Assembly (NCBI GenBank): GCA_016125385.1
Contig: WGLV01000022.1
Coordinates: forward strand, 124,001-188,000
Source of the DNA: a bacterium
GTDB lineage: Bacteria; Hinthialibacterota; Hinthialibacteria; Hinthialibacterales; Hinthialibacteraceae
Length of the DNA: 64,000 nt
Direction of reading: 5' to 3'
Shown here: in pieces, positions 3,696 through 58,880 of the stretch
How positions within the stretch are numbered: the stretch's first letter is position 1
How the letters are laid out: each line of letters starts with the position of its first letter
Notes under the pieces: generated by a model
What the model was told of the DNA's origin: nothing
Seen by the model: only the letters and a program-made list of their open reading frames with translations
Database searches by the model: none
Translations under genes and position numbers: made by a program

Positions 3696-4168
3696 ATGAA
3701 ACAGTCCGCCTGCGCCGTGCCGGATGCGTTGAGAAGACCAGACTCAATAAGGTGGGTTCTACAGTACGCGCAACGCCTTCCCGTATAGGGCATGACGCGC
3801 AACGGACGACAAGAACCCGGGGTAAAACGATATAGCCTCTCAGACATGATCCCGGTGCACGAACGCCGCAGAGTCTGTTTCAATTCCCAATACGGCGCTT
3901 TCTCGTCTCATTCGCTCCACTCAACACGATCTCTTCCCGATCGCGCTCGCGGTGGAGTATGAATATAGTATAAACGCGTTCTGAATTCATCAATTCTTTT
4001 TGATCGGGATTTCACGATTCTCTTCGTTCGGGGCGTAAAAATTTTGCGAGAGACTTTTTACAGTTTGTTACGCTTCATTCGTGGACAATCACGCTTCCGG
4101 CTCCTACTATTTATAGAGCATAAGAATATCTTCACATCCTGTTCATCCATCCCGCGGTTATAACTGGA

Positions 4169-4275
4169 GCGTTTGTCAAAGATACGTTCGTATGGAATAT
4201 TCGAATAAACGGCGGAATTCACACGGAGAACGTGATCTTCGCCACGATAGAATCCGAACGTTGCTTTGAAGACGT
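4169..4275 (+). repeat. Dispersed palindromic element, copy 1
   Basis: Aligns with the copy at 26581-26690: GCG-TTTGTCA, then ATACGTTCGTAT, a central imperfect stem (AATTCAC...GTGATCTT around GGAGAAC) and the closing arm AATCCGAACGTT. The outer arms ACGTTCG and CGAACGT are complementary. It sits immediately upstream of the secreted-protein gene at 4309. Confidence 0.6.
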
Positions 4276-4308
4276 AACAAAATTCTCTCACGGAAAGGGA
4301 CGTCAAAG

Positions 4309-4842
4309 ATGAAGTGGAACACGAAAGTATTCGTCTGGACGGTGGCGGCGGTAAGCGTATTGATCGTGAGCGCATGGGCGGTTGAAAACCAGACCAGCGA
4401 TCCCTCCTCGAAATCCACGCTGGATTTTAACGAAAACGATCCCAAAGATTACCCCCTCACCACCCAAATCAATATCGATATCAAGGGTTTGGCCAATTTC
4501 GGGACGGTGTACATGCTCGAAGGCATCGACAATGAAACCACCGTCATTTCTGAAGGGGGAAAAACCAGCGCCGGCGCCACGCGCTGGGCGCGTCTGGTGT
4601 TTCATGGAGTCTTCGATAAACGCATTCGCGACTGGCGTATCGACGTAATCAGTGGAAAAGTCGACAAGCGCGACATCCAGGTTGACCTGTATAACAAGGG
4701 CGGCCGCCGGGTTATGCGCTACATGTTCCGTAACTGCTGGCCGGTGCGTTTCACCCTGCCTCCGCTTTCGGTCGACGGCGCGACGCGCTATCAGGAACGG
4801 GTTGAATTCGTCTACGACACGTTTGACGTGATCGATAACTGA
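4309..4842 (+). CDS. Secreted protein of unknown function
   Basis: A 177-residue protein that begins with a typical signal peptide (MKWNTKVFVWTVAAVSVLIVSAWA, cleavage probable after the alanine near residue 24). The mature part has alternating hydrophobic/polar strands (LANFGTVYMLEGIDNETTV, WARLVFHGVFDKRIRDWRIDVISG, RVMRYMFRNCWPVRFTLPPLS), consistent with a beta-sandwich. It ends YQERVEFVYDTFDVIDN, reminiscent of T4-like/Afp conserved phage tail tube proteins (gp19 family), but with an export signal; that resemblance is weak. GGAAAGGGA lies upstream of the ATG. The next gene, also secreted, follows 45 bases later, so an operon is likely. No function can be assigned. Confidence 0.7.
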   Translation: MKWNTKVFVWTVAAVSVLIVSAWAVENQTSDPSSKSTLDFNENDPKDYPLTTQINIDIKGLANFGTVYMLEGIDNETTVISEGGKTSAGATRWARLVFHGVFDKRIRDWRIDVISGKVDKRDIQVDLYNKGGRRVMRYMFRNCWPVRFTLPPLSVDGATRYQERVEFVYDTFDVIDN

Positions 4843-10788: not shown

Positions 10789-11523
10789 TCAGATCGAGAC
10801 GCGGTTCCCCTTCATCTCGGGCGTAAGAACGCTGGTGTCCACCTTCACGCACTCGGGCAGGTCCTCTCCCAGGCCGATCTCATCCAGATAACGGCCGTGG
10901 ACGGAGGTATTCACCATGTTGAGAAGATTCCCCTGATACATGTGGTACAGATCGACGGCGGTGCGGGCGGCGTCGGTAACGTCGGTAAAAACGCCGGGCG
11001 GTTCGATCATATTGGCGATCACGCCGCCAAGACAAACCGCGTCTTCCAGACAGTACATCCCCTCACGGCCCGAAACGACGAATAAAATTTCGTCGGCTTC
11101 GCCCTGATATTGCTTGAGCCGGCTTGCCAGCGCGCTCATGTTGCTGAACGCGGCGATGAAAACCTTTTTGGCGTGGCGCGCGGCGGAGAGCGCGCGGGTT
11201 CCATTGGTAGTCAGCTGAATCAGCGTCTTGCCGTTCACGGCTTCGGCGGTGAATTCGCGCGGCGAGTTCCCCAAGTCATAGCCTTCCCGCTTCAGGCCGT
11301 CTTTTTCCCCACAGAGCAATACCGGCAGCCCCTGCTCGTTCAACAGGGTATACATGTCGCGGGCCGATTCCTCGCTCGGCTGCGGCATCACCGCCCGCGC
11401 CCCGTTTTGCAGCGCGCGAATCATGACGGTGGTGGCGCGTAATACGTCCGCGACGGCCACGATGCTGTTTTCCAACTTACGATTGGATAGTTCATGCCAG
11501 GTGAATAATAAGTCGAACTTCAC
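10789..11523 (-). CDS. comB: 2-phosphosulfolactate phosphatase (ComB family)
   Basis: A 244-residue phosphatase that, in characterised members, hydrolyses 2-phosphosulfolactate to sulfolactate in coenzyme M or sulfolactate synthesis. Family signatures seen: VVAVADVLRATTVM-like motif near the N-terminus (VAVADVLRATTVMIRAL), LLCGEKDGLKREGYDLGNSPREF and LIQLTTNGTRAL. The start is taken as GTG 11523 (reading MKFDLLFTW), which has AAGGAGA 8-9 bases upstream; longer frames lack a site. No other coenzyme M gene is in the window, so the role here may be sulfolactate or an unrelated phosphoester. Confidence 0.88.
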   Translation of the reverse strand: MKFDLLFTWHELSNRKLENSIVAVADVLRATTVMIRALQNGARAVMPQPSEESARDMYTLLNEQGLPVLLCGEKDGLKREGYDLGNSPREFTAEAVNGKTLIQLTTNGTRALSAARHAKKVFIAAFSNMSALASRLKQYQGEADEILFVVSGREGMYCLEDAVCLGGVIANMIEPPGVFTDVTDAARTAVDLYHMYQGNLLNMVNTSVHGRYLDEIGLGEDLPECVKVDTSVLTPEMKGNRVSI

Positions 11524-11584
11524 GAGTGCGTCTCCTTCACTTGTGCGATTCCGCGCACGCGGTATACCCTCAAACAATTGAAAA

Positions 11585-11655
11585 GCGGTTGTCAATAATA
11601 GGTTCGTTTTGAACCTGGGTACAACCCGCGAAAATCATAAGGATATCTGGTTATC
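11585..11655 (+). repeat. Dispersed palindromic element, copy 2 (degenerate right half)
   Basis: GCGGTTGTCA at 11585, then GGTTCGT, GAACCTGGGTACAA and CGAAAATCATAAGGA align in order and spacing with the copy at 26581. The right arm of the central stem has decayed. It lies between divergent comB and the sbcC-like gene. Confidence 0.6.
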
Positions 11656-11715
11656 TCCTTCACCGATCCGGTCTGAATTCCGGAGGTGGATAAATTCACG
11701 GATGGACGCGTTGCG

Positions 11716-26576: not shown

Positions 26577-26690
26577 TATAGCGGTTGTCAGAATTACGTT
26601 CGTATTGGACCTTGGTACAATCGCCGGAAATCACAAGGAAACGTGATTTTCGGCACGGCTAATCCGAACGTAACTATGGCGATAAATATA
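26577..26690 (+). repeat. Dispersed palindromic element, copy 3 (best preserved)
   Basis: A central hairpin CCGGAAATCAC (26624-26634), loop AAGGAAAC, GTGATTTTCGG (26643-26653). It is enclosed by outer arms TTACGTTCG (26593-26601) and CGAACGTAA (26665-26673), and ends in GATAAATATA. About 110 bases in total. Confidence 0.75.
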
Positions 26691-54215: not shown

Positions 54216-54851
54216 TTATTTCGGAATGTTTTCGCTCAAGAGCCTTCCGCTGTGATCGATCGCGCCGGGATACATCGTCAACAATTCGTCATACAGCGCC
54301 CTGGCTTCCTCATCCTTCCCGTCCTGCTTGTATTGATACGCCAACAGAAAACGCGCGTACGCCCCCACCTGTACGCCGTCTCCGTAGAAGCAGTCGCCAA
54401 AATCCTTGATGGCGCGTTGATAATACTCAAGCCGCTTGTCTCCTTCCGACATCTGCCCCAGATATAACACCGCGCATCCCGTCCGGTTGGCGTGCATATA
54501 CTCGCGCGTGAGTTTCTCCAGACTGGCGACGGCCTCTTCCGAACGCCAGTTCTTGTTCGCGACCTGGTACAACTGCTCGATCTCGGCCAGTTGCGACTGA
54601 CTGTACTTCTCACGGTCCTGCATCATGCGCTCGCGCGCTTTTGTCTGCATGGCCTCGCGGTTAGAGGAGGCGGTGAGCTGGCTCTTGACCGGCAACACGA
54701 TCTTCTCCAGCGCGGCGATGCGTTCTTCCAGCTGAGCGATTTTGGCTTGCAGTTGTTTGATGACGGCGTCTTTGTCGTCCTGACAATGCCCGCTCAGTGG
54801 CGCCAGAGACAAGACGAACAGCGTGGCGATGGCGATTGACTTTTTCATCAT
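54216..54851 (-). CDS. Secreted coiled-coil/TPR-like protein
   Basis: A 211-residue exported protein with signal peptide MMKKSIAIATLFVLSLAPLSGHC, where the C is not in a clear lipobox. A heptad coiled coil follows (DAVIKQLQAKIAQLEERIAALEKIVLP, about 28-55). The rest looks like TPR helices (AVASLEKLTREYMHANRTGCAVLYLGQMSEGDKRLEYYQRAIKDF, DEEARALYDELLTMYP), similar to the YbgF/CpoB plan of coiled coil plus TPR in cell-envelope biology. That comparison is by layout only. A palindromic element lies just upstream. Confidence 0.72.
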   Translation of the reverse strand: MMKKSIAIATLFVLSLAPLSGHCQDDKDAVIKQLQAKIAQLEERIAALEKIVLPVKSQLTASSNREAMQTKARERMMQDREKYSQSQLAEIEQLYQVANKNWRSEEAVASLEKLTREYMHANRTGCAVLYLGQMSEGDKRLEYYQRAIKDFGDCFYGDGVQVGAYARFLLAYQYKQDGKDEEARALYDELLTMYPGAIDHSGRLLSENIPK

Positions 54852-54890
54852 CCGTTTCCCCCGTTTGTGTGAATGGTGAATGTTGTGGCT

Positions 54891-55000
54891 CCGGTCGTCT
54901 GAATTATGGTGTTATTGCACCTCATGCCAATCGGCGGATGTCACACTGAAACGTGATTTCCGCGCCGATGAATCCAGACATAACTCTGACGATAAATATA
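54891..55000 (+). repeat. Dispersed palindromic element, copy 4
   Basis: Aligns along its length with the copy at 26581: GGTCGTCTGAATTATGG, TATTGCACCT, CCAATCGGCGG, TGTCACACTGAAACGTGATTT, then GATAAATATA at the right end. Upstream of the minus-strand gene at 54851. Confidence 0.65.
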
Positions 55001-58167: not shown

Positions 58168-58370
58168 ACCATGCTGAAACCCGCCTGCATAACTTCCCGG
58201 AGAATCGCACTCGCCTCGCCGACCGGCTGAATCATTGGATCGCTGGCGCCGAACACCGGTTCTCTCGATAAATCGCCCCATCGCTCCGCGCTCGGTATTC
58301 AGAGAAAAACCGGCCTTCGTTGATTGATGTCGGCGGAAATCCGAAAGCATGGTATGATGAAAAAATTATA

Positions 58371-58478
58371 ACGGCTGTCAAAATGATGTTCTTGATGAGT
58401 TCGAGTACAATCGACGAAAATCACTAGAAAACGTGATTTTAGCACGATCGCTCGGGACGTTTCTTTGACGGCATGGCC
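58371..58478 (+). repeat. Dispersed palindromic element, copy 5
   Basis: Aligns base-for-base in spacing with the copy at 26581: CGGCTGTCA, GAGTACAATCGACG, and a perfect central hairpin AAAATCAC (58417-58424)...GTGATTTT (58433-58440) around TAGAAAAC, then GCACG. It lies between the M56 peptidase gene and the next small gene. Confidence 0.7.
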
Positions 58479-58844
58479 GGTTATTCATCCCACGTGGCGC
58501 GCGATATGAAGGTGCAGGACCTTGCGGAATTATTTTTTGTGGTGGGTAAGCATCATCCCGATCAAAAACAGGTCAATCCGCTGTTTTTCGATTTGCCGGG
58601 CGATGAAATCGCCATCCCTGTCTGGACGGCCAAAACCCGCGCCTATTCCTGGTTGGAATGGACCTTCCTCCGCGCGGAATACGATATTGTCGAAGTCAAA
58701 CGCGATGAATTCATCGCCAATCTGATTGGAACGCGATGTTCGTGTCTTCTGATCGATCCCGAGGCGGATGATAAAACCTTCCCCCCCGAAAAAGTCGTCG
58801 CCATCCCGCGCATTCCCGGTCCCCCGCCTGATAATCTGATCTGA
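58473..58844 (+). CDS. Hypothetical protein, 123 residues
   Basis: A cytoplasmic protein with no recognised domain. It is rich in alternating strands (LAELFFVVGKHHPDQ, NPLFFDLPGDEIAIPVWTA, WTFLRAEYDIVEVKRDEFIANLIGT) and ends PGPPPDNLI. The start could also be ATG 58506 (112 residues); neither has a good ribosome-binding site, and the 58473 start falls in the right end of the palindromic element. A 25-base tandem duplication spans its stop codon. Codon use looks like its neighbours, so it is probably a real gene. Confidence 0.55.
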   Translation: MAGYSSHVARDMKVQDLAELFFVVGKHHPDQKQVNPLFFDLPGDEIAIPVWTAKTRAYSWLEWTFLRAEYDIVEVKRDEFIANLIGTRCSCLLIDPEADDKTFPPEKVVAIPRIPGPPPDNLI

Positions 58845-58880
58845 GACGTCCCCGTATAATCTGATCTGAGGCGTCCCCGT
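58831..58880 (+). repeat. 25-base tandem duplication over a stop codon
   Basis: Two consecutive units of 25 bases starting ATAATCTGATCTGAG and ending CGTCCCCGT (58831-58855 and 58856-58880) differ at one base. The first unit includes the stop of the upstream gene. Confidence 0.8.

Follow-up and report, generated by a model that had tools for sequence, protein, structure and literature searches.

A 114-bp palindromic element that occurs five times in the window, the 64-kb stretch of DNA analysed here, is very probably a MITE, a transposable element that does not move autonomously, here with TA ends as in the Correia/RUP type. This reading is well supported by its defined, TA-ended terminal inverted repeats (TIRs), by some 70 copies, dispersed and differing in age by degrees, and by a sibling family that shares the ends but has another interior, and anatomy and distribution together suggest that the family has been mobile within a restricted lineage. 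It represents a previously undescribed MITE family in an uncultured lineage, its copies spanning a wide range of ages, and since its ends and its core can be scored separately, it could help to decide if passive loss or co-option is the fate of bacterial MITEs that lie upstream of genes.

The consensus unit measures 114 bp, a length on which the young copies agree, and is bounded by imperfect TIRs of about 26 bp ending in TA (TATAgcGGTTGTCAgAaTTACGTTCG and TATAttTGTTGCCAaAgTTACGTTCA in the 114-bp family consensus; TATAGCGGTTGTCA...TGGCAACAAATATA in short form). Young copies begin with TATAGCGGTTGTCAGAATTACGTTCG on the left and with TATATTTGTTGCCAAAGTTACGTTCA on the opposite strand, and they keep TA at both termini, the flanking sequence beyond it being random. 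No longer direct repeat was seen at the ends, and the TA is a candidate target-site duplication. The centre of the unit is a 12-bp stem closed by an 8-nt loop, mostly AAGGAAAC, and the left arm bears an additional near-dyad, TTGGACCTTGGTACAA, an 18-nt bulged segment. The family shows two of the features by which MITEs are recognised: terminal inverted repeats at fixed ends, and a short (<200-300 bp), multi-copy, non-coding unit, here one of 114 bp with 72 copies detected by a covariance model, almost all of them intergenic. Individual copies depart from this plan. The L012/L068 copy (G000:C33:26348-26465) has its hairpin tip in inverted orientation, unlike the rest of the family, as though flipped inside the stem. 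Locus L077 (995-1362; G000:C2:34694-35061) carries three head-to-tail copies with a period of 116 and a 92% match, and the repeated unit is a diverged family member whose arms are altered while the core hairpin is unchanged.

The five copies in the window, all on the + strand, were first pointed out by a sequence-only reading; they exist, align along their length and are exactly the matches, and the only ones, that the family model finds there. The reference copy (26577..26690) is full length and young, with about 91-95% identity to the youngest copies. Its left TIR, TATAGCGGTTGTCAGAATTACGTTCG, occupies 26577..26602 and its right TIR, the reverse complement of TATATTTATCGCCATAGTTACGTTCG, 26665..26690; between them lie the left-arm bulge TATTGGACCTTGGTACAA (26603..26620), with the near dyad TTGGACC TT GGTACAA, and the core hairpin (26623..26654), in which a 12-bp stem (26623-26634 paired with 26643-26654) encloses the 8-nt loop AAGGAAAC (26635-26642). 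Folded as a single strand, this copy reaches -44 kcal/mol (z -6.1 against shuffles), and the other four score z -2.3 to -3.8. The diverged copy at 4165..4280 ends 28 nt upstream of a gene at 4309; that gene (4309-4842) encodes a T4 gp19-like tail-tube-domain protein (PF06841) with an N-terminus resembling a signal peptide. The copy at 11581..11694 is degraded, the 3' half of its hairpin being gone, and lies between divergent genes, a ComB-type phosphatase (10789-11475) and an SbcC/Rad50-like gene starting at 11686. Of the two remaining diverged copies, one (54887..55000) lies upstream of a minus-strand gene (54216-54851), and the right end of the other (58367..58479) overruns the start codon of a gene at 58473. 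Two tandem 25-bp repeats, ATAATCTGATCTGAGACGTCCCCGT, 96% identical, occur at 58831-58880. Searched across the whole genome, the covariance model assigned E-values of 1.4e-28 (26577), 8.6e-19 (4165), 4.4e-17 (54887), 5.3e-17 (58367) and 2.3e-8 (11581).

The finer details first proposed for these copies fared unevenly. The common core AAATCAC-N8-GTGATTT is intact at 26577 and 58371 but inexact in the other three, its pairing mostly kept with substitutions at 4169 and 54891 and the 3' half of the hairpin lost at 11585; the outer arms ACGTTCG/CGAACGT, thought to recur, are exact in two of the five (4169 and 26577). The sharing of GATAAATATA by two copies was borne out for 26577 and 54891. Four copies had been placed just upstream of a start codon, and in fact all five are no more than about 35 nt away from a predicted start codon.

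Further copies, the lack of which would have counted against the family, were found genome-wide. BLAST with the 26577 copy against its own genome (G000; 5.53 Mb in 77 contigs) returned 41 matches, seven of them, the query copy included, at least 90% identical over the full length, and a covariance model (R1) built from 24 copies gave 72 matches at a cut-off of E<=0.01. Divergence among the copies is graded, from 97% identity down to barely recognisable, and 66 of 71 are intergenic according to gene calls made with a crude codon-usage gene finder of our own. Outside G000, R1 matched 25 places in G001, which belongs to a different genus of the same family, and one place, weak and of sibling type, in G004; it matched nothing in the other genomes searched at family, order or class level (three others of the family, eight others of the class). 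This patchy presence favours the MITE reading. The CinA-like protein has its closest named relatives, at no more than 41-52% identity, in MAGs labelled Omnitrophota, Verrucomicrobia and others. BLAST against plasmids found no copies, and no Rfam RNA family scored above its gathering threshold. A core-only model retrieved almost exclusively loci that also bear the arms, which shows that arms and core travel together. The idea of the core as a free-standing motif elsewhere was rejected on the same result and on the absence of its exact sequence from 84,980 reference genomes, a set that may omit the window's own genome. Chance likeness of unrelated intergenic dyads is effectively refuted by the genome-wide copies, for which E-values reach 1e-39 in BLAST (non-self matches) and 1e-29 with the model in the same genome.

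Alongside distant copies of the 114-bp family, G001 carries a separate family of about 107 bp, TATAGTGGTTGCCAGAATTATGTGCGGATTG...CGCACATATTTTTGACAAACGCTCTA, to which most of its weaker R1 matches belong, with ends homologous to those of the 114-bp family and an unrelated interior; the left-end consensus sequences are identical at 26 of 31 bases. Loci L122-L131 of G001 illustrate this sibling MITE family, present in dozens of copies whose homologous ends read TATAGTGGTTGCCAGAATTA and whose inner hairpin is unrelated. Matches to the TIR pattern number 49 in G000 against 7 in a backwards control, and 81 against 20 in G001. Two families that have homologous ends but differ inside would be expected if one end-recognising enzyme served both. 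Such a transposase, of the IS630/Tc1-mariner type, would recognise the ends in trans and insert at TA; it was presumably present in an ancestor and has since been lost or is missing from the assembly, and the copies would have spread in bursts and decayed afterwards. Searches of the assembly with IS630 models agree with the earlier remark that a transposase is lacking: DDE_3 and NF033545 find none in G000 and support no credible one in G001. The single NF033545 match in G001, an open frame of 100 aa that lies at the end of a contig, was discarded as an IS630 partner; by our own reading it looks like the helix-turn-helix portion of an IS of a different type. The IS630-type genes of G005 and G006 lack matching ends. 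The missing partner counts against the MITE reading, though weakly, because draft assemblies often lose multi-copy insertion sequences.

The strongest competing explanation, though unlikely, is that the hairpin is regulatory, whether exapted or so from the start, and acts as RNA or DNA to control adjacent genes, its core being under selection. Covariation in the stem, which had been proposed as a check, was found. Among 21 copies in the core alignment, pairing holds in 93.7% of cells but drops to 33-50% when the partner strand is slid, and both sides are changed in 10 cells, against 3.8 in shuffles (0/500 reach 10). With 71 copies, both-side changes occur in 99 cells against 63 in shuffles (again 0/500 reaching 99), the clearest covarying pair being a G-C flipped to C-G, in 39 versus 14 copies. 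Because related copies inherit changes jointly, this covariation supports selection without proving it. An arms-only model with the core masked (R2) gave 60 matches at E<=0.1, and among those of moderate to strong divergence, the 32 that retain a core have a mean identity to the consensus of 0.85 in the core stem and 0.68 in the TIRs (Wilcoxon p=1e-6). The difference is notable since ascertainment by the arms should favour the arms, and it counts against simple neutral decay of a MITE, though TIR diversity between founder lineages could alternatively account for the lower TIR identity. The core has moreover been deleted from several arms-bearing copies (L089, L105, L113, L114 and L116) and from most of the extra arms-only matches, which argues against a regulatory hairpin.

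Genomic context bears on the same question. Older copies lie mostly just upstream of genes, and five of the 11 youngest copies, one of them doubtful, lie between convergent genes compared with one of the 55 others (Fisher p=3e-4, with bins chosen post hoc); of the intergenic bases in the window, 13% fall between convergent genes, 57% between divergent and 30% between tandem ones. A regulatory hairpin would fit this shift with age, but copies in tandem settings follow no orientation rule (20 versus 15), the family is missing from sister genera, and outward hybrid promoters with a -35 box in the TIR and a -10 box in the flank were rejected, no -10 box being common to the ends at promoter spacing and -10-like boxes not being enriched at gene-facing ends (p=0.84). 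At L089 in G000 and L034 in G001, homologous flanking genes (62-67% identical) enclose a family copy in the same gap and orientation, upstream of an orthologous substrate-binding-protein-like gene. This speaks for regulation, but the G000 copy has no core. The pair may be an ancient shared insertion, and a single coincidence of orthologous position is not improbable, about 0.2 being expected by chance on a rough estimate, so that it constitutes no proof. At both loci the family member sits downstream of a conserved promoter-like stretch.

The two explanations can also be combined, in that an old MITE family may have had its central hairpin turned into a recurrent cis-regulatory element, in which case selection, acting through compensatory changes, would preserve the hairpin in copies that precede genes, the ends used in transposition would decay and copies at other sites would disappear; this remains a tentative proposal of low probability. 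Under the MITE reading itself, the long palindrome would let read-through transcripts form a stable hairpin, copies near start codons may alter expression, and some old copies were possibly retained for that effect. The recurring regulatory element of the sequence-only reading is thus possible for old copies, as a suggestion, and its MITE/REP-type family is well supported as a MITE and unsupported as REP. Palindromes of the REP/BIME type, moved by a RAYT (Y1) transposase that recognises hairpins, would likewise be extragenic with a bulged stem-loop, but the present unit, which is 114 bp long and has TIRs ending in TA, differs from 20-40-bp units tagged by GTAG/CGTC and no alternating BIME-like clusters were seen, which makes this origin very improbable.

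Among known systems, the Correia repeat enclosed elements or NEMIS of Neisseria are 100-160 bp long with TA ends and TIRs beginning TATAG[CT]GG, and are intergenic, many lying 5' of genes, with transcripts that fold into long stem-loops (PMC2649163, PMC2229807). The 114-bp family resembles them in size range, TA ends, intergenic sites and many gene-upstream copies. In contrast to a Correia/NEMIS TIR (TATAG[CT]GGATTAAC...), its own TIRs have only TATAGCGG in common before diverging (GGATTAACAAAAATCAGGAC versus GGTTGTCAGAATTACGTTCG), so that membership was rejected; its core is a hairpin with no IHF site shown, and its host lineage is unrelated. RUP of Streptococcus pneumoniae is 107 bp long, has about 108 intergenic copies and a TA target, and is believed to owe its mobility to IS630-Spn1 (PMC2229807). 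By description it is similar to the 114-bp family in length, intergenic copies and TA ends, whereas no partner insertion sequence was found for the latter with IS630 models in G000 and G001. The TA ends of the 114-bp family fit a MITE derived from IS630/Tc1. The Nezha-type MITEs of cyanobacteria are TIR-bearing, IS630-like elements with TA targets, and by general description they may offer a further likeness to the 114-bp family.
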